Assembly: GCF_030419005.1 (NCBI RefSeq)
Contig: NZ_CP106951.1
Location: forward strand, 4,960,001 to 5,024,000
DNA length: 64,000 bases
DNA from: Eleftheria terrae
GTDB lineage: Bacteria > Pseudomonadota > Gammaproteobacteria > Burkholderiales > Burkholderiaceae_C
Direction of reading: 5' to 3'
Shown: piece after piece, positions 8,782-64,000 of the stretch
Layout of the letters: every line of letters starts with the position of its first letter
Position numbering within the stretch: the stretch's first letter is position 1
Notes under the pieces: model-generated
Databases searched by the model: none
What the model was told of the DNA's origin: nothing
What the model saw: only the letters and a program-made list of their open reading frames with translations
Translations under genes and position numbers: made by a program

Positions 8782-10041
8782 GTGTCCAGACCTATTCTTC
8801 ACATTGCCATCGTCGGCTGGGGCAGTGCCGGCCAGGCGGCCGCGTTGATGCTCAGCGACGACGGCCACCGCGTCGAGGTGTTCGAGCGCGCCGCCGCCCC
8901 CGGCCCTGTAGGAGCCGGCTTCCTGTTGCAGCCCACCGGCCTGGGCGTGCTGCATGAGATTGGCCTGCTGAGCCAGGCACTCGCCCACGGCGCCCCCGTG
9001 CTTCGGCTGCATGGCGACACGCCGTCCGGGCGCACCGTGATGGACATGGCCTATGCCGATCTCGACCCCGGGCTGTACGGCCTCGGCATGCAGCGCGGCG
9101 CGCTGTTCGAGATCCTGCGCGCGGCCTGGCAAGGGCGGGGCAGCTTGCACACCGGACAAGCCGTGACCGCAGTCGAGGCCGAGCAGGGCCGGCTGCGCAC
9201 GGCCGACGGCGCCTGGCACGGCCCCTACGACCTCATCATCACGGCTGATGGTGCCGCTTCTGCGCTGCGCACCGCGCTCGGTGCTGCCACCGTCGACCGC
9301 CCCTACCCCTGGGGGGCGCTGTGGTGCTTGCTGCCTCTGGCCGGCTGGCAGCACGGTGGCGAGCTGCGCCAGCGCTATCGGGCCGCCCGCAAGATGATCG
9401 GCCTGCTGCCGGTGGGCACCCGGCCGGGCGACCCGGTGCCACGACTGAGCTTCTTCTGGAGTTTGCCGGTCGGCGAGTTCGAGGCGACGCAATCAGGTGC
9501 CGCGGGCAGCTTTGCTGCCGAGGTCGAGAGCTTGTGGCCCGAGGCCGCGGCGGTATTGAAAGCCTTGCCCGAGCCCGGGCGGCTGGCCCGTGCCAGCTAT
9601 CGCGACGCGGTACTCGGTTGCTGGCACCGAGGCCGGCTGGTGGCCATCGGTGACGCCGCGCACGCCATGAGTCCGCAGCTGGGGCAGGGCGTGAACATGG
9701 CGCTGCTCGATGCGTGGGCGCTGCGCCAGGCGCTGCGGGCCGAGACACAGCTGCCGTCCGCACTGGCCCGCTACGAACGAGAGCGCCGTGCCCATGTCGG
9801 CATCTATCACTTCTGGAGCCGGTGGCTGACACCGCTGTTCCAGTCGGCGCACGACCGCCTCGCGGCCGTGCGCGACCTTGCCTTCGCTCCCATGGGCCGG
9901 CTGCCGTTCGGCCGCGGCCATATGCTGCGCGTGCTGACCGGCACACAGCACGGCGTGCTCGGCCGGCTGCCCCTCACGCCCGGCCTGCGCGAGGCACTGG
10001 CGGCCGGGCGGGCCCCGCAGGACGAGGCGCGCAGCGCGTGA
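8782..10041 (+). CDS. FAD-dependent monooxygenase (UbiH / p-hydroxybenzoate hydroxylase fold)
   Basis: A 419-residue flavoprotein. The N-terminal Rossmann motif is AIVGWGSAGQAAALML (about 8-23), the NAD(P)H-side motif lies around DLIITADGAASALRTAL, and the second FAD motif is GDAAHAMSPQLGQGVNMALLDA (about 293-314). These are hallmarks of single-component aromatic-ring or related hydroxylases using NAD(P)H and O2. The substrate cannot be inferred: neighbours are unrelated and no degradation genes are near. The frame is open far upstream, but GTG 8782 is chosen because it starts right before the FAD motif and sits 6 nt after a -10 box. Confidence 0.85.
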   Translation: MSRPILHIAIVGWGSAGQAAALMLSDDGHRVEVFERAAAPGPVGAGFLLQPTGLGVLHEIGLLSQALAHGAPVLRLHGDTPSGRTVMDMAYADLDPGLYGLGMQRGALFEILRAAWQGRGSLHTGQAVTAVEAEQGRLRTADGAWHGPYDLIITADGAASALRTALGAATVDRPYPWGALWCLLPLAGWQHGGELRQRYRAARKMIGLLPVGTRPGDPVPRLSFFWSLPVGEFEATQSGAAGSFAAEVESLWPEAAAVLKALPEPGRLARASYRDAVLGCWHRGRLVAIGDAAHAMSPQLGQGVNMALLDAWALRQALRAETQLPSALARYERERRAHVGIYHFWSRWLTPLFQSAHDRLAAVRDLAFAPMGRLPFGRGHMLRVLTGTQHGVLGRLPLTPGLREALAAGRAPQDEARSA

Positions 10042-49687: not shown

Positions 49688-52441
<2,754 letters not shown>

Positions 52442-52573
52442 GGGGGTCACTCCGAGGTGCGGTTCAAGGTGGGGAAAGATCGTGGGGATTGTCGCAGTTT
52501 GAGCTTGCGTCGCAAGAAGCGTGCAGGGACTTCGCCGCCCCTGCACGCCGCCCCAGCCGCCCCGATTGACGCC

Positions 52574-54581: not shown

Positions 54582-57167
54582 TCAGACCGCCACCGCCTTG
54601 GCCACGTCGCTGAACTCCTCGATCTGGTCAAAGTTCATGTAGCGGTACACCTTGTCGCCGTCCTTGTTGATCACGCCCATGTCGGCGTGGTACTCGGCAA
54701 CGGTCGGGATGCGGCCCAGCTTCGAGCAGATCGCGGCCAGCTCGGCCGAGCCGAGGTAGACGTTGGTGTTCTTGCCCAGGCGGTTGGGGAAGTTGCGGGT
54801 GCTGGTGGACATCACCGTCGCGCCCTCGCGTACCTGCGCCTGGTTGCCCATGCAGAGGCTGCAGCCCGGCATTTCCATGCGGGCGCCCGCGCCGCCCAGC
54901 ACGCCGTAGTGGCCTTCCTTGGTCAACTCGGCCGCGTCCATCTTGGTCGGCGGCGCCACCCACAGCTTCACCGGGATGTCGCGCTTGCCTTCCAGCAGCT
55001 TGGAGGCTGCACGGAAGTGGCCGATGTTGGTCATGCAGGAGCCGATGAAGACCTCGTCGATCGTCGCGCCCTGCACGTCCGACAGCGTCTTGGCGTCGTC
55101 CGGATCGTTCGGGCAGCAGACGATGGGCTCGTTGATGTCGGCCAGGTCGATCTCGATGACGGCCGCGTACTCGGCGTCCGCGTCCGGCTGCAGCAGCTCC
55201 GGCTTGGCCAGCCACTGCTCCATGGACTTGATGCGGCGTTCCAGGCTGCGCTTGTCCTGGTAGCCGTTGGCGATCATCCACTTCAGCAGCGTGATGTTGC
55301 TGTTGAGGTACTCGATGATCGGTTCCTTGTTCAGGCGCACGGTGCAGCCGGCCGCGCTGCGCTCGGCCGAGGCGTCACTCAGCTCGAAGGCTTGCTCGAC
55401 CTTCAGGTCCGGCAGGCCTTCGATCTCCAGGATGCGGCCCGAGAAGATGTTCTTCTTGCCCTGCTTGGCCACCGTCAGCAGGCCCTGCTTGATGGCGTAC
55501 AGCGGGATCGCGTGCACCAGGTCGCGCAAGGTGATGCCGGGTTGCATCTTGCCCTTGAAACGCACCAGCACCGATTCCGGCATGTCCAGCGGCATCACGC
55601 CGGTGGCCGCGGCGAAGGCCACCAGGCCCGAGCCGGCCGGGAAGCTGATGCCGATCGGGAAGCGGGTGTGGCTGTCGCCGCCGGTGCCCACGGTGTCGGG
55701 CAGCAGCATGCGGTTGAGCCAGCTGTGGATCACGCCGTCGCCCGGGCGCAGCGCGATGCCGCCGCGGTTGCTGATGAAGGCCGGCAGCTCGCGGTGCATC
55801 TTCACGTCCACCGGCTTCGGATAGGCGGCCGTGTGGCAGAAGCTCTGCATCACCAGGTCGGCGCTGAAGCCCAGGCAGGCCAGGTCCTTCAGCTCGTCGC
55901 GGGTCATCGGGCCGGTGGTGTCCTGGCTGCCGACGGAGGTCATGCGCGGCTCGCAGTAGGTGCCCGGGCGCACGCCCTGGCCCTCGGGCAGGCCGCAGGC
56001 GCGGCCGACCATCTTCTGCGCCAGCGTGTAGCCCTTGGTCGAGGCGCTCGGCGAGGTCGGCAGGCGGAAGGCGGTGGAGGCGCCCAGGCCCAGGAACTCG
56101 CGCGCCTTGGCGGTCAGCGAGCGGCCGATGATGAGGTTGATGCGGCCGCCGGCGCGCACTTCGTCCAGCAGCACGTCGCTCTTGAGTGCGAAGCTGGCGA
56201 TCTGGGTGCCGTTCTTCTCGATCTTGCCGGCATAGGGGTAGACGTCGACCACGTCGCCCATGTCCATGCCGGAGACGTCGACCTCGATCGGCAATGCGCC
56301 GGAGTCTTCCTGCGTGTTGAAGAAGATCGGTGCGATCTTGCCACCCAGGCAGATGCCGCCGAAGCGCTTGTTGGGCACGAAGGGAATGTCCTCGCCAGTG
56401 GCCCAGATCACGCTGTTGGTGGCCGACTTGCGGCTGGAGCCGGTGCCCACCACGTCGCCGACATAGGCCACCAGGTGGCCCTTTTTCTTCAGCTCTTCAA
56501 TGAACTGCACCGGGCCGCGCTTGCCATCTTCCTCGGGCGTGATGCCGGGGCGGGCGTTCTTGAGCATCGCCAGGTAGTGCAGCGGGATGTCCGGGCGGCT
56601 CCAGGCGTCGGGCGCGGGCGAGAGGTCGTCGGTGTTGGTCTCGCCGGTGACCTTGAACACGGTGACCGTGATCTTCTGCGCCACTTCCGGGCGCGAGGTG
56701 AACCACTCGGCGTCCGCCCACGACTGGATGACCGCCTTCGCCTGGGCGTTGCCGGCCTTGGCCTTCTCGGCCACGTCGTGGAAGTAGTCGAACATCAGCA
56801 GGGTCTTCTTCAGGCCCTCGGCCGCGACAGCGGCCACTTCGGCGTCGTCCAGCAGCTCGATCAGCGGCTTGACGTTGTAGCCACCCACCATGGTGCCCAG
56901 CAGCTCGGTCGCCTTGGCGCGCGAGATCAGCGCCACCTTGACGCTGCCGTCCGCCACCGCGGCCAGGAAGGAAGCCTTCACCTTCGCTGCATCGTCCACG
57001 CCCGGCGGCACGCGGTGCGTCAGCAGGTCCAGCAGGAACTGTTCTTCGCCGGCCGGCGGGTTCTTCAGCAGCTCGATCAGCTCGGCGGTCTGCTGGGCAG
57101 ACAGCGGCAGCGGGGGAATGCCGAGCGCGGCGCGTTCAGCGACGTGGTCGCGGTAGGTTTGCAGCAT
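54582..57167 (-). CDS. acnB: bifunctional aconitate hydratase 2 / 2-methylisocitrate dehydratase
   Basis: 861 residues, typical Acn[21 protein letters not shown] at the N-terminus (HEAT-like domain), [20 protein letters not shown] and the C-terminal Fe-S region [20 protein letters not shown] and [16 protein letters not shown] are diagnostic. In the TCA cycle it makes isocitrate; in the methylcitrate cycle it rehydrates 2-methylaconitate, consistent with the prpD/C/B genes nearby. It has its own promoter, with an operator at 57222-57235. Confidence 0.97.
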
Positions 57168-57214: not shown

Positions 57215-57242
57215 ATTTTATGTCTTATATAAGACTTGCCAA
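57215..57242 (-). promoter_or_regulatory. acnB promoter with GntR-type operator in the spacer
   Basis: Minus strand TTGGCA (57237-57242) and TAAAAT (57215-57220) are separated by 16 nt. The spacer contains the perfect 14-bp palindrome GTCTTATATAAGAC (57222-57235). A protein bound there would sit between the -35 and -10, i.e. act as a repressor. The same palindrome lies between mdh and a gntR gene at 63753-63770. Seen directly: palindrome and boxes. Inferred: GntR binding. Confidence 0.75.
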
Positions 57243-57397
57243 GGCGCGCGGTGTTGAAGACTGCACGGGCGGCGGCAAGCGCAGGGGGCGAGGCACAGGC
57301 GCCGAGGACGCAGGAGCCGCAGGGCGGGCTGCCCCGGGCTGCTGCGTCCCCGGTGCTCGCCCGGCCACGGATGGCCGGGCGAAAGGAGTGCGGGAGG

Positions 57398-58849
57398 TCA
57401 GATCACGTACAGGTCCACGTACTCGTGCACCGGCATCGCTTCCAGCGTCTTCTGCTCCAGCGAGACGGCCAGGATGGCGTCCTGCTGCTTCTTCGGGAAG
57501 CGGCGGGCCAGGTTGGTGCGGAACTTGGCTTCCAGCAGCGGAATGCCGTCGGCACGGCGGCGCTTGTGGCCAATGGGGTACTCCACCACCACTTCAGGCA
57601 GCCGGGTGCCGTCGTTCAGCTCGACGGTCATCGCATTGGCGATCGAGCGCTTCTCGGGGTCGTGGTAGTCCTTGGTGAACTGCGTGTCTTCCACGCAGAC
57701 GATCTTGTCGCGCAGCGCGTCGATGCGCGGGTCGGCGGCAATGATGTCCTCGTAGTCGGCGGCGGTCAGGCGGCCGTAGATCAGCGGCACCGCCACCATG
57801 TACTGCACGCAGTGATCGCGGTCGGCCGGATTGTTCAACGGGCCCTTCTTGTCGATGATGCGGATGCAGGCCTCGTGCGTGCGGATGGTCACCTTCTTGA
57901 TGTCGTCCGCCGTCTTGCCGGCCTGGGCCAGCTGCTGGTGCAGCGTCATCGCCGCTTCCACTGCCGTCTGGCTGTGGAACTCGGCCGGGTAGCTGATCTT
58001 GAACAGCACGTGCTCCATCACGTAGCTGCCGTACGGGCGCTGGAACTTGAATTCGTTGCCCTTGAACAGCACGTCATAGAAGCCCCAGCCCTTGGCGCTG
58101 AGCACGCTGGGGTAGCCCATCTCGCCGGTCTTGGCGATCAGGGCCAGACGCACCGCGCGGCTGGTGGCGTCGCCGGCCGCCCAGCTCTTGCGCGAGCCGG
58201 TATTGGGCGCATGCCGATAGGTGCGCAGCGCCTGGCCGTCGACCCAGGCCAGCGACACGGCGTTGATGATCTCCTCGCGGTTGAGGCCCAGCATTTGCGC
58301 CACCACCGCGGTGGACGCCACCTTGACGAGCACCACATGGTCGAGGCCGACCTTGTTGAAGGAGTTCTCGAGCGCGATGCAACCCTGGATCTCGTGCGCC
58401 TTGATCATCGCGGTCAGCACGTCGCGCATCAGCAGCGGCTTCTTGCCGGCGGCCACCGCGTTGCGGCTGAGCCAGTCGGCGGTGGCCAGGATGCCGCCCA
58501 GGTTGTCCGACGGGTGGCCCCATTCGGCGGCCAGCCAGGTGTCGTTGAAGTCCAGCCAGCGGATCATCGTGCCGATGTTGAAGGCGGCCTGGATGGGGTC
58601 GAGCTGGAACTGCGTGCCGGGCACCTTGGCGCCATGGGGCACCACGGTGCCGGGCACCACCGGGCCGAGGAGCTTGGTGCACGCCGGGTACTCCAGGGCC
58701 TCCAGTCCGCAGCCGAGCGTGTCGATCAGGCAGTTGCGTGCGGTGTCGTAGGCCAGCGGGGACGTGACCTCGTACTTCATCACATAGTCGACGATGTCGA
58801 CCAGGACTTTGTCGGGATCGGGACGGACGTTGGAGATTGCGGCGGACAT
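57398..58849 (-). CDS. prpD: 2-methylcitrate dehydratase
   Basis: 483 residues, the usual PrpD length, no Fe-S cluster. Conserved stretches are the opening [60 protein letters not shown], and a C-terminal [17 protein letters not shown]. Dehydrates 2-methylcitrate to 2-methyl-cis-aconitate, which AcnB then hydrates. AGAGGAA precedes ATG 58849. The 230 bp to acnB contain the acnB operator and no gene. Confidence 0.96.
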
Positions 58850-58877
58850 GGTTCCTCTTGGGTGTCTCGGGACGGGG

Positions 58878-59363
58878 TTATTGCGGGGTGGCCGCGGCCT
58901 TGAGGGCCTGGGCCGCCTCGCGCTGCTTTTCATGGACGCATTCGTCGACCATGCGCTGGCCGGTCTTGACGTTCATGAGCATCGACTTGTTGGCGATCTG
59001 CAGGTACAGGGCTTCGCCACGCACGTCCTCCAGGCGCATGGCGCCGGTGGTCGACAGCACGGGCTTCATCACATAGTTCTTCTTGCCGAACTTGAGGTCG
59101 ACATAGCCGGGGGTGGTGGCGTTCATCGCCAGGTCGACCGACTGCTTGAACTCGCAATCGCTGGTGCCGTAGAGCACGTTCTCAGCCGCCTGCAGCTGTT
59201 CCGGCGTGGCCGCGGCGAGCGCGGCCGGCGCGGCCACCGCTGCTGCTGCGGCGGCGGCACGCTTCTTCTTCTTGACCGGCTTGTTCTCGGCGGCGTGCGC
59301 CAACGACAGGGCCAGCAGGGCGCTGGAGGCGATGCAGGCGGCGCGAATCAGGGGGGTCCTCAC
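58878..59363 (-). CDS. small exported protein in the prp cluster, function unknown
   Basis: 161 residues from GTG 59363 with AGGAG 8 nt upstream. A signal peptide ends at AHA-EN. Then come a Lys-rich patch (KPVKKKKR), a poly-Ala tract and a folded part [20 protein letters not shown] and [20 protein letters not shown] with two Cys. It is probably periplasmic. No similarity I can name. Its position between prpC and prpD (67 and 28 bp away) suggests co-transcription, which is unusual for the methylcitrate pathway. Confidence 0.72.
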
Positions 59364-59430
59364 GGTGGGTCTCCTAGCTGGGAATGAGCGGAAAGCCCCG
59401 ATTGTGGTCGCGTGCATCCTGTAACAGCGT

Positions 59431-60603
59431 TCAGCGGCGGTCCTTCAGTGCGACAAATTTCAGATCTTCAGGGCCCACGTAGTTGGCGCTCGGGCGGATG
59501 ATCTTGCCGTCGATGCGTTGCTCGATGATGTGGGCGCTCCAGCCGGATGTGCGGGCAATCACGAACAGCGGGGTGAACATCGCGGTCGGCACGCCCATCA
59601 TGTGGTAGCTCACCGCGCTGAACCAGTCGAGGTTGGGGAACATCTTCTTGACTTCCCACATCACCGACTCCAGCCGGGCCGCGATGTCGAACATCTTCAT
59701 GTTGTTCGCCTCGGCCGACAGGCGTTGCGCGACGCCCTTGATGACCTTGTTGCGCGGGTCGCTGACGGTGTAGACCGGGTGGCCGAAGCCGATGATGACT
59801 TCCTTGTTCTCGACGCGCCGGCGGATGTCGGCCTCGGCCTCGCCGGGGGTGTCATAGCGCTTCTGGATCTCGAAGGCCACCTCGTTGGCGCCGCCGTGCT
59901 TCGGGCCGCGCAGCGCGCCGATGGCGCCGGCGATGGCCGAGTGCATGTCCGAGCCGGTGCCCGCGATGACGCGGCCGGTGAAGGTGGAGGCATTGAACTC
60001 GTGCTCGGCGTAGAGGATCAGCGAGGTGTGCATGGCCTTCACCCACGATTCGCTCGGCGCGCGGCCGTGCAGCAGGTGCAGGAAGTGCCCGCCGATGGAG
60101 TCGTCGTCGGTCTCGACCTCGATGCGGCGGCCGTTGTGGCTCCAGTGGTACCAGTAGAGCAGCATGGAGCCCAGGCTGGCCATCAGCTTGTCGGCAATGT
60201 CGCGCGCGCCGGGGTGGTTGTGGTCGTCCTTCTCGGGCGACACACAGCCGAGCGTGGAGACCGCGGTGCGCATCACGTCCATCGGATGGGCGCTGGGCGG
60301 CAGTTGCTCCAGCACCGCCTTGACGGCCGCCGGCACGCCGCGCAGCGCCTTGAGCTTGGCCTTGTAGGCCGCCAGCTCGGCCACGCTGGGCAGCTTGCCG
60401 TGCACCAGCAGGTGGGCGATTTCCTCGAACTCGCAGGTCTCGGCGACATCGAGGATGTCGTAGCCGCGGTAGTGCAGGTCGTTGCCGGTGCGGCCGACCG
60501 TGCACAGCGCGGTGTTGCCCGCGGCGGTGCCGGAGAGGGCGACCGATTTCTTCGGCTTGAAGCCCGGCGCGGTGGCGGGGGCGGCGGTGGTCGTTTCGCT
60601 CAT
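59431..60603 (-). CDS. prpC: 2-methylcitrate synthase
   Basis: 390 residues, of the small citrate-synthase type. [20 protein letters not shown] and [20 protein letters not shown], active-site HNxx region in [40 protein letters not shown] and [17 protein letters not shown] are present. Condenses propionyl-CoA (and acetyl-CoA less well) with oxaloacetate. The short length and position next to prpB/prpD favour PrpC over GltA. ATG 60603 is 13 bp after the prpB stop. Confidence 0.95.
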
Positions 60604-60616
60604 GGTTGTCTCCTCG

Positions 60617-61501
60617 TCACTTTTTCGCGGCGAACAGCGCGTCCAGGCGCTGCTCGTACTCGTGGTAGCCGATGCGCTCGTACAGCTCTTCGCGGGTCTG
60701 CATCAGGTCCAGCACGTTCTTTTGGGTGCCGTCGCGGCGGATGGCGGCATAGACCGCCTCGGCCGCCTTGTTCATCGCCCGGAAGGCGCTGAGCGGGTAG
60801 AGCACCATGCCGACGCCGCTGCTGCGCAGCTCCTCGACCGTGAACAGCGGCGTCTTGCCGAACTCGGTGATGTTGGCCAGCACCGGCACCTTCACCGCAT
60901 CGACGAAGCGGCGGTAGGTGGGCAGGTCATAGGCGGCCTCGGCGAAGATGCCGTCGGCGCCGGCTTCCACGCATTTCAGTGCGCGCTCGATGGCGGCATC
61001 CACCCCCTCGACCGCGATCGCATCCGTGCGGGCGATCAGGAAGAAGCCGGCGTCGGTCTTGGCATCCGCCGCAGCTTTCACCCGGTCGGCCATTTCCTGC
61101 GCGGTGACGATCTCCTTGCCCGGCCGGTGGCCGCAGCGCTTGGCGCCCACCTGGTCCTCGATGTGGCAGGCGGCGGCGCCGGCCTTGATGAGGCTCTTGA
61201 CGGTGCGCGCGATGTTGAAGGCGCTCGGGCCGAAGCCGGTGTCGACGTCCACCATCAGCGGCAGGTCGCAGACGTCGGTGATGCGGCGCACGTCGACCAG
61301 CACGTCGTCCATCGTGTTGATGCCGAGGTCGGGCATGCCCAGCGAGCCGGCCGCCACGCCGCCGCCCGACAGGTAGATGGCACGATAGCCGGCCCGTTGC
61401 GCCAGCAGCGCATGGTTGGCGTTGATGGCGCCGATCACCTGCAGGGGTGATTCCTGGCGCAGCGCCTCGCGGAAGCGGGCGCCGGGGGTCGGGGAACTCA
61501 T
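60617..61501 (-). CDS. prpB: 2-methylisocitrate lyase
   Basis: 294 residues, the correct PrpB length. The catalytic motif in [20 protein letters not shown] contains the KRCGH signature of methylisocitrate lyases, and [20 protein letters not shown] gives the Mg/acid region. Cleaves 2-methylisocitrate to pyruvate and succinate. GGAG lies 8 nt before ATG 61501, which overlaps the upstream lyase stop as ATGA. Confidence 0.96.
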
Positions 61502-62544
61502 GCGGTTGTCTCCGTGAAGAAGGCCTGGACGGCGGTGTCCGGCAGCGCCCGGCCGGTGCGGTGGGCACGATCCAGCACGTGCCAGTAGTAGCGGTAGCTG
61601 GCGCGGTCGTGCAGCGTGTCGCTGCCGCGCGTGCGGTGACGCACCGGGCCCCACCCGGCGGCTTGCGCGGCCAGCAGGATCTCGGCGGCGGTGGCCACCT
61701 CTTCTTCATCGGGCGCGAAGGCCTCGATGATGGGCTCGATCTGGTTCGGGTGGATGCTCCACATCCGGGTGTAGCCCAGCTCCCGGGCCGCCTTGCCGGC
61801 GGCGGCGCGCAGCGCCTGCAGATCGTTGAACTCGGTCACGACGCAGTGCGAGGGCGTCTTGGCGGCGGCATGGCAGGCGGCGGCGATCTCGGCCTTCGCG
61901 CGCAGCACCAGCGGATGGCTGAACTGCCCGGTCGCGCTCATGCCGGCCGAGGGGATCGCGCCGCGATGGGCCGAGACGAAGTCCATCAACCCGAAGGACA
62001 GCGACTCGATCCGCGGATGCGCGGCGATCTGCCACACGTCGCGCAGCGCGCCATGGGTTTCGACCAGCACATGCACCGGCACCCGCCGCGCCAGGCCCAC
62101 CTCGGCCGCCAGGGCGTCGATACGGCGACAGGCCAGCTCCACGTCGGTCAGGCTGCGCGGCTTGGGTACCATCAGGTAGGCCAGCCGCTGGCCACAGCGT
62201 GCAAGCAGGGTGCGCACCTCGGTATCGAAGGCCGCATGGCCGACGGGATGCACCCGCGCGCCGACGCGGTCGTAGCGGTTCAGCGGCGAGTCGACCAGCT
62301 CGGCGATCAGCGCCGCATGCTCCTGCTCGCCGCCCACCGGCGCACCGTCCTCGGCGTCCAGCGTCGCGTCGAAGACGGCGGTGCCATGGCGCTCTCCCAG
62401 CTCCGCCTGCAGCGCCAGGCTCTTGCGCATGCGCGGCTCCACGCCGGCATAGTGGTCGCACACCGGCAGGGCGGGCAGTGCCTCACCGGCCTCGAACAAG
62501 GCCTGCGCCGGATGGGGCGCGGCGGGAGCAGGGCGGTTGGTCAA
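61498..62544 (-). CDS. HpcH/HpaI-family CoA-ester lyase (citrate-lyase beta type)
   Basis: 348 residues from a TTG start. The family features are [40 protein letters not shown] (Mg-binding Glu/Asp), RVHPVGH-type [36 protein letters not shown] and [17 protein letters not shown]. Members cleave malyl-CoA, beta-methylmalyl-CoA or citryl-CoA. Its location upstream of prpB fits a beta-methylmalyl-CoA or related C4/C5 lyase, but substrate is unproven. No good ribosome binding site precedes TTG 62544, so the exact start is uncertain. Confidence 0.9.
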
Positions 62545-62560
62545 TTGACGTATACGTAAA
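62540..62560. promoter_or_regulatory. two overlapping palindromes upstream of the lyase gene
   Basis: GTCAATTGAC (62540-62549) and ACGTATACGT (62548-62557) are perfect palindromes that overlap by two bases right at the lyase start. The outer pattern TTGACGTATACGTAAA resembles, from memory, LiuR-type MerR-family sites. Binding protein unknown. Confidence 0.45.
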
Positions 62561-62569
62561 TCGGAGGTC

Positions 62570-62607
62570 GAAAAAAAGGCCGACAGGCGAAGAACGCTGC
62601 CGGCCTT
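62570..62607 (-). terminator. intrinsic terminator of mdh
   Basis: AAGGCCGACAG (62577-62587) pairs with CTGCCGGCCTT (62597-62607), with one A-C mismatch. On the minus strand it is followed by T7 (forward A7, 62571-62577). It lies between mdh and the CoA-ester lyase, so the two may not share one transcript. Confidence 0.8.
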
Positions 62608-62640
62608 CCTTGACGGGGCCGTGACCGGCCCCGGGGCCGA

Positions 62641-63627
62641 TCACAGCAGGTGCTTGACGCCGTCCTGCTCTTCCTGGAGTTCCTTGAGCGTCAGGTTGAT
62701 GCGCTCTTGCGAGAAGGCGTCGATCTCCAGGCCTTCGACAATCTTGTACTCGCCGTTCTCGACGGTGACCGGGAAGCCGAACATCACGTCCTTCGGGATG
62801 CCGTATTCGCCGTTCGACGGCACGCCCATCGTCACCCACTTGCCCTGGGTGCCGAGCGCCCAGTCACGCATGTGGTCGATGGCGGCATTGGCGGCCGAGG
62901 CGGCCGACGACAGCCCACGTGCCTCGATGATGGCGGCGCCGCGCTTGCCGACGGTGGGCAGGAACACGTTCTTGTTCCATTCCTCGTCGTTGATCATCGG
63001 CTTGACCGGCTGGCCGCCGATGGTGGCGAAGCGGTAGTCGGCGTACATCGTCGGCGAGTGGTTGCCCCACACGGCCAGCTTCTCGATGCTGGCGACCGGC
63101 TTGCCGGTCTTGGCGGCGATCTGGCTCAGCGCGCGGTTGTGGTCCAGGCGCAGCATCGCGGTGAAGTTCTTGCGCGGCAGGTCCGGGGCCGACTTCATGG
63201 CGATGTAGGCATTGGTGTTGGCCGGATTGCCGACCACCAGCACGCGCACATTGCGGCTGGCCACCGCGTTCAGGGCCTTGCCCTGGGCAGTGAAGATCTG
63301 CGCGTTGGCCGACAGCAGGTCCTTGCGCTCCATGCCGGGGCCGCGCGGACGGGCGCCGACCAGCAGGGCGTAGTCGACGTCCTTGAAGGCCGTCATCGGG
63401 TCGCTGTGGGCTTCCATGCCAGCCAGCAGCGGGAAGGCGCAGTCCTCGAGTTCCATCATGACGCCCTTGAGCGCCTTCTGAGCCTTCTCGTCGGGGATCT
63501 CCAGCAATTGCAGGATCACGGGCTGGTCCTTGCCCAGCATTTCGCCAGAGGCGATGCGGAACAGCAGGGCATAGCCGATCTGGCCAGCCGCGCCGGTGAC
63601 GGCCACGCGTACGGGTTGCTTGCTCAT
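62641..63627 (-). CDS. mdh: malate dehydrogenase
   Basis: 328 residues, the MDH type 2 found in betaproteobacteria. NAD motif [34 protein letters not shown] and catalytic [13 protein letters not shown] (His) are conserved. The NAD-dependent oxidation of malate to oxaloacetate closes the TCA cycle. GGAG lies 6 nt before ATG 63627. It has its own promoter with -35 TTGACA and a terminator. Confidence 0.97.
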
Positions 63628-63716
63628 GTGAAACTCCAGGGAATCGTGTTGTGAGGATCGGGGGTCGAGATGCCGCGGCGCAGCACGGCACACGCTCCAG
63701 GTCCACAGTGTAGGGG

Positions 63717-63745
63717 AGTCTAGAGGGTGCTCTCCACACTGTCAA
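63717..63745 (-). promoter_or_regulatory. mdh promoter
   Basis: Minus-strand TTGACA (63740-63745) and TAGACT (63717-63722) are spaced by 17 nt. Transcription would begin near 63710. The operator palindrome is 7 bp further upstream. Confidence 0.75.
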
Positions 63746-63752
63746 TGGTCTT

Positions 63753-63770
63753 ATGTCTTATATAAGACAT
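63753..63770. promoter_or_regulatory. 18-bp palindrome, candidate operator of the divergent GntR regulator
   Basis: ATGTCTTATATAAGACAT is a perfect palindrome containing the same 14-bp core, GTCTTATATAAGAC, found in the acnB promoter. It lies upstream of the mdh -35 and 50 bp before the gntR ATG. It could serve mdh and gntR together. Confidence 0.75.
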
Positions 63771-63807
63771 GATTTATCAGTTCCTGGACTTCACCGGGGC
63801 GATGTGA

Positions 63808-63813
63808 TGCAAT
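63808..63813 (+). promoter_or_regulatory. -10 box 7 nt before the gntR start (leaderless)
   Basis: TGCAAT ends 7 nt before ATG 63821, with TGGACT (63785-63790) 17 nt upstream as a weak -35. No Shine-Dalgarno is present. Confidence 0.4.
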
Positions 63814-63820
63814 CGCTGCC

Positions 63821-64000
63821 ATGGCGACCCTGCCTCCGTCGACGCTGCCCGAGTTTCCTGCCTCTCCGAGCGAGGCGGGCGGCCCCGCTTTCAGTCCGCT
63901 CTACCAGCAGATCAAGGGGCTCATCCTGCGCAGCCTGCAGGCCGGCGAATGGAAGCCGGGCGAGGCCATTCCCAGCGAGGTCGACCTGGCGGCGCGCTTT
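63821..64000 (+). CDS. GntR-family transcriptional regulator, N-terminal part (runs off window)
   Basis: Sixty codons are visible. After a 22-residue Pro/Ser-rich leader, SPLYQQIKGLILRSLQAGEW and KPGEAIPSEVDLAARF match the first helices of a GntR winged helix (pattern P-L-Y-x-Q-I-K, G-x-x-x-P-G-x-x-I-P-S-E-x-x-L-A). The effector domain (HutC/UbiC type most likely) is outside the window. Position beside mdh and the shared palindrome make it the best candidate for a regulator of TCA and methylcitrate genes. Confidence 0.9.
   Translation, partial: MATLPPSTLPEFPASPSEAGGPAFSPLYQQIKGLILRSLQAGEWKPGEAIPSEVDLAARF

Follow-up and report, generated by a model that had tools for sequence, protein, structure and literature searches.

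The window analyzed here is a 64,000-nucleotide stretch of the Eleftheria terrae genome (contig NZ_CP106951.1, positions 4,960,001 to 5,024,000), which carries genes of the tricarboxylic acid (TCA) cycle and, at its right end, the start of a gene for a GntR-family regulator. On the minus strand lie acnB (54582 to 57167), encoding bifunctional aconitase B/2-methylisocitrate dehydratase (TIGR00117, 1527 bits), and mdh (62641 to 63627), encoding malate dehydrogenase and named from its own sequence. The regulator gene, gntR (sdhR), is divergent from mdh; it begins on the plus strand at 63821 and continues past the window end at 64000. Relatives of mdh that were 85 to 90% identical also adjoined gntR in loci of the same family. 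The 14-base word GTCTTATATAAGAC was found in two exact copies, one in the acnB promoter (57222 to 57235) and one between mdh and gntR (63755 to 63768), as had been reported in an earlier annotation of the window made from its letters alone (the sequence-only reading).

The acnB copy, a predicted SdhR-type operator, sits within the 16-base spacer separating a −35 element, TTGGCA (57237 to 57242), from a −10 element, TAAAAT (57215 to 57220), both minus-strand consensus matches. The second copy is the inner palindrome of a predicted mdh/gntR operator, is part of a flawless 18-base palindrome (63753 to 63770), and lies upstream of the mdh promoter TTGACA-17-TAGACT (−35, 63740 to 63745; −10, 63717 to 63722; both minus-strand consensus matches). 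The perfect 18-base palindrome and both promoter placements agreed with the earlier description, in which an outer half-site at mdh/gntR had been overlooked. This half-site, TCTTAT (63749 to 63754, plus strand), extends the operator to TCTTATGTCTTATATAAGACAT, so that the complete element reads TCTTATG-TCTTATATAAGAC-AT. It is conserved in the consensus of gntR-upstream operators from 76 loci, TCTTATGTCTTATATAAGAtAT, in which the mdh-side outer half-site is highly conserved. No further match to GTCTTATATAAGAC was found elsewhere in the window at ≤2 mismatches, and 100 dinucleotide shuffles of the window gave 0 matches.

The complete regulator is a protein of 258 amino acids with a GntR helix-turn-helix domain (PF00392, 71.5 bits) and a UTRA domain (PF07702, 103.7 bits); it did not reach the HutC equivalog TIGR02018 (118.5 bits versus a cutoff of 220). 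Downstream of gntR, the genome order is sdhCDAB-sdhE-gltA, and sdhC also stands beside gntR in the loci of relatives. A HutC-subfamily GntR regulator named SdhR has been predicted by comparative genomics, with the printed motif TCTTATGTCTTATATAAGACATAAGA, and is listed among the exceptions to the usual motif of that subfamily (PMC4494728; Suvorova, Korostelev, and Gelfand 2015, citing Suvorova, Ravcheev, and Gelfand 2012 for SdhR). The window regulator is likewise a HutC-type GntR protein, with the domains and the sdhCDAB linkage of SdhR, and the published motif includes the palindrome of both window sites together with the outer half-site. With this exact motif already in print for SdhR, the window finding belongs to a regulon known from prediction. 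The main text of that paper contains neither of the strings aceA and isocitrate lyase, its passages on SdhR give no list of targets, and no experimental study of this GntR-type SdhR was found among the literature matches listed. We put a probability of roughly 0.8 on the reading that the GntR-UTRA (HutC-type) protein encoded divergently from mdh, already named SdhR, uses the palindromes as its operators. Judged from sequence comparison, the likely targets of SdhR in this group of bacteria are the genes for aconitase, malate dehydrogenase, and isocitrate lyase, along with a small number of neighboring central-metabolism genes.

The E. terrae genome (7.03 Mb, 4 contigs) contained three exact copies of GTCTTATATAAGAC, the third being upstream of the isocitrate lyase gene aceA (locus L001; NCBIfam isocitrate lyase, 826 bits). 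The reversed word had no match at ≤1 mismatch in the whole genome, and the earlier view that the copies exceed chance expectation was borne out. The 19-base extended operator at ≤3 mismatches was found at four places, namely, mdh/gntR, aceA, prpE, and acnB (five matches, because mdh/gntR was matched on both strands), and the reversed 19-base word at none. Positions 63749 to 63767 fit the 19-base part of TCTTATGTCTTATATAAGACATAAGA on the minus strand with 0 mismatches, and the acnB, aceA, and prpE sites each differ from it by one. The prpE gene encodes propionate-CoA ligase (TIGR02316, 1100 bits; L410:1958-3850), with its one-mismatch extended operator near L410:3931-3949. A copy of the 14-mer with 2 mismatches lies in the DUF3579-argD intergenic region (C2:1634665); this match and that at prpE (C2:1073436) were retained because of their genes, the latter also for its outer half-site. 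A further 2-mismatch match (C2:348240, L004) was set aside as lying inside an open frame, and 3-mismatch matches were discarded as noise because the reversed word gave more of them (15 forward versus 23 reversed). Predicted operators thus lie upstream of mdh/gntR, aceA, acnB, argD/DUF3579, and prpE, and in relatives also upstream of icd. Where the sequence-only reading had looked to gltA, sdh, icd, and prp genes for further sites, prpE (own genome) and icd (relatives) answered, but none of the four extended sites marked a promoter belonging to sdh or gltA itself. No operator was seen on inspection of the gntR-sdhC gap of the own genome; the sdh genes could be transcribed by read-through from gntR.

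Conservation was surveyed across the family in 60 genomes, with each genus represented once and the own genome included. The 14-mer was present at ≤1 mismatch in 55 of them (153 sites versus 5 for the reversed word), and the GntR protein was present in 57 (E value up to 1e-20). Sites were mapped to genes starting within 400 bases in 65 loci of relatives, among the matches listed of the 153, with tandem aceA sites counted as two. Of 73 distinct sites mapped in this way, 70 were upstream of gntR/mdh, aceA, argD/DUF3579, icd, or acnB: 29 at aceA, 22 at gntR/mdh, 10 at argD/DUF3579, 4 at monomeric icd, 3 at acnB, 1 at dimeric icd, and 1 labeled aceA plus argD. The remaining three were unexplained, one lying by an acyl-CoA-dehydrogenase-like gene named by eye (L047) and two near no reference gene (L027 and L066). 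Operators between argD and the divergent DUF3579 gene were seen at L006:1501-1514 and also in L024, L028, L036, L041, L046, L049, L058, L071, L077, L078, and L080.

A complementary, gene-first test took 350 bases upstream of each gene and allowed ≤2 mismatches, with reversed words, downstream stretches, and base shuffles as controls. For gntR, the 80 best of the 592 loci found were used, all of them titled GenBank entries and many from metagenome bins, and sets of 30 for aceA, argD, acnB, dimeric icd, and prpE were drawn from 58, 58, 54, 52, and 52 genomes with a match, respectively. The operator was found upstream of gntR in 77 of 80 loci, of aceA in 24 of 30, and of argD in 22 of 30, and all controls at this threshold were 0 (shuffles, 0/600 per set and 0/1600 for gntR). 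With the 19-mer at ≤4 mismatches, shuffles gave 2/600 for aceA and 0 for the remaining sets. Both the tie between the palindrome and the divergent GntR gene and its conservation in relatives, as proposed from the window alone, were therefore upheld.

Beyond the family, 150 genomes of the order were scanned, of which 78 had a site at ≤1 mismatch and 80 had a GntR homologue at an E value of up to 1e-45, a count that includes roughly 40%-identical possible paralogues. When a limit of 210 bits was applied to the GntR protein, sites were present in 52 of 64 genomes with a homologue and in 26 of 86 without (Fisher test, P = 4e-10, with genomes treated as independent although related). Sites per genome averaged 1.83 with a homologue (control, 0.17) and 0.37 without (control, 0.34). 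By this measure, the predicted operator and the regulator gene are linked across the order. In other families, sites were found upstream of acnA, acnB, and icd as well. A second GntR protein, about 40 to 45% identical, was observed in several family genomes (G046, G017, G052, G005, G053, and others).

Promoter placings were scored on distinct sequences, with duplicated named/unnamed records removed and a score above 4 as the threshold. Occupation of the −35/−10 spacer is a classical repressor position, and the acnB operator lies there, which would imply repression; all but one of 12 distinct acnB loci had the palindrome near −20, between the −35 and −10 elements, so that the placement noted in the window recurs in relatives. 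Among 16 distinct loci with tandem aceA promoters, 11 had the proximal site at this same position, and 10 had the distal site near −50. A promoter-like placing near −18 was obtained for DUF3579 in 11 of 25 distinct loci. Tandem sites were usually spaced 30 bases apart (18 distinct cases), with spacings of 29 bases in two cases and 11 bases in one, which would put them mostly on one helix face; loci with the 30-base spacing included L020, L042, L064, L069, and L082. A TTGATTT block lying some 25 bases upstream of the operator was also conserved in aceA promoters.

In the mechanism that we propose, a dimer of SdhR would occupy the inner palindrome, with a further subunit held by the outer half-site. 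Bound between −35 and −10, SdhR would block RNA polymerase at acnB, gntR, and the proximal aceA site, and the distance of 30 bases (three turns) between the two aceA sites would favor cooperative repression. At the mdh and single-site aceA promoters, the operator may center near −50, a position from which either a negative or a positive effect is conceivable. Release would come from a small metabolite bound to the UTRA domain, for which the likeliest guess is an acid from the citrate-isocitrate-2-oxoglutarate segment of the cycle. The effector domain has a fold of the same kind as those of DasR, YvoA/NagR, and HutC (18 to 29% identity to the window GntR protein), and the two-domain build is common to DasR and YvoA. 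The PDB entry 3CNV holds the ligand-binding domain of a putative GntR-family regulator from Bordetella bronchiseptica (effector domain only; its title names no ligand). A structure model of the window protein (mean predicted local distance difference test score, 77.9; predicted template modeling score, 0.58) yielded no ligand. With a conserved, easily found operator and a solved homologous effector domain, both the metabolite and the sign of regulation are testable.

Several results weigh against assigning the operators to SdhR throughout. The aceA, argD, acnB, icd, prpE, and gntR loci were chosen by similarity to the query and not randomly, and at 3 mismatches the controls were not clean (one reversed match at argD and one downstream match at gntR). 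The acnB operator was present in only 5 of 30 loci and in 8 of 48 titled loci that include the start of acnB. It was exact in those eight (including Methylibium, Leptothrix, Sphaerotilus, Azohydromonas, and Rubrivivax), and the nearest word in the other 40 was at least 5 mismatches away. Dimeric icd had an operator in 1 of 30 loci, and prpE in 1 of 30, this being the own genome (0 of 29 relatives). In the order scan, 12 of the 64 genomes with a close homologue lacked a site, and the 26 of 86 noted above had a site without the homologue. In 5 of 59 gntR loci from the family and order, the best upstream word was at least 4 mismatches away (L096, L159, L166, L169, and L170). The gntR placing near −18 was modest (37 of 75 above 4), and the mdh placing near −54 exceeded 4 in 26 of 73 loci, with a lower mean than placings inside the palindrome; we attribute the high mdh scores there to the AT-rich core, which mimics a −10 element. 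We rejected icd as a core target (dimeric, 1 of 30 loci; monomeric, 4 of the 73 mapped sites) and prpE as a family-wide target. In relatives, acnB often follows mdh by 0.7 to 2.7 kb without an operator of its own and may in such cases be read from mdh.

The best-surviving alternative concerns the sign of regulation: SdhR might act in two ways, repressing gntR, acnB, and DUF3579 from about −20 and activating mdh and single-site aceA from about −50. The mdh and distal tandem aceA placings given above fit this proposal, as does an outer half-site that faces the −35 element. However, the sign does not follow from position alone, most of the related UTRA regulators are known as repressors, and single-site aceA promoters had the −50 placing in 5 of 17 loci, versus 10 of 17 for a placing with the −10 element inside the palindrome. 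We consider dual action unlikely.

Broader than SdhR control of individual promoters, and comparably doubtful, is the idea of an order-wide switch at the isocitrate node. In this scheme, SdhR would repress itself and read mdh at about −50 from one operator and would set aceA, acnB, icd, and argD/DUF3579 together; a UTRA sensor of a six- or five-carbon acid would divide carbon among the full TCA cycle, the glyoxylate shunt, and glutamate-derived arginine, with DUF3579 in the circuit. In betaproteobacteria, regulation of the TCA cycle and glyoxylate shunt is understood less fully than in enteric bacteria. The operator, for its part, ties the uncharacterized protein DUF3579 to central metabolism.

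A second alternative, that the sites belong to a methylcitrate or propionate regulon, is quite improbable. It draws on the citE-like, prpB, prpC, and prpD genes that lie between mdh and acnB, on the prpE operator of the own genome, and on the source cited for SdhR, which is a study on malonate and propionate catabolism (as cited in PMC4494728). Against it, not one of the 73 sites mapped in relatives preceded prpB, prpC, prpD, or prpE, and an intrinsic terminator follows mdh (62567 to 62614, minus strand; fold of −27.2 kcal/mol, z score of −4.0, with a U run), with 0 of 200 shuffles equally stable. A bulge in its stem is the probable reason that a simple terminator scan omitted this hairpin. 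Transcripts of mdh should therefore end before the citE-like and prp genes, and read-through from mdh into prp and acnB was rejected for the own genome.

The prp operon also has a palindrome of another kind, TTGACGTATACGTAAA, at 62545 to 62560, just upstream of the citE-like frame. At ≤1 mismatch, this pattern was found at six places in the genome, 62545 to 62560 among them, and in 50 of 60 family genomes. In region L411, such words at 9417 and 9920 flank a MerR gene (9457 to 9900), with an acyl-CoA-dehydrogenase-like gene alongside; we take this to be a putative LiuR system, for which the motif is ACGT-NN-ACGT. LiuR, a MerR-family regulator of branched-chain amino acid catabolism, is the probable regulator type for this palindrome and differs from SdhR in its motif and its genes. 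Because the terminator and the TTGACGTATACGTAAA palindrome precede it, the prp operon is better read as under LiuR-like control, which the palindrome suggests for the methylcitrate operon, and it looks separate from the SdhR regulon. Only the predicted prpE operator firmly connects the SdhR motif with propionate, and among the 30 genomes examined it was seen in the own genome alone. Of the TCA/methylcitrate regulon originally suggested, the TCA part therefore stood, with further central-carbon sites, but inclusion of the methylcitrate operon beside acnB was not supported.

A last possibility, that another regulator sharing the motif binds the palindromes and gntR is merely one of its targets, could draw on the 26 genomes with a site and no close homologue but is highly improbable, since genomes lacking the homologue have no more sites on average than the control, the motif precedes nearly every gntR examined, and nine site-bearing loci without a listed homologue hold a distant GntR protein (34 to 40% identity) in the same mdh-operator-gntR-sdhC arrangement.

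The window also holds a second aconitase gene, acnA-like (49688 to 52546; so called by eye and from relatives of 78 to 79% identity), with no copy of the palindrome nearby; in another family, acnA does have the palindrome (loci L124 and L126).

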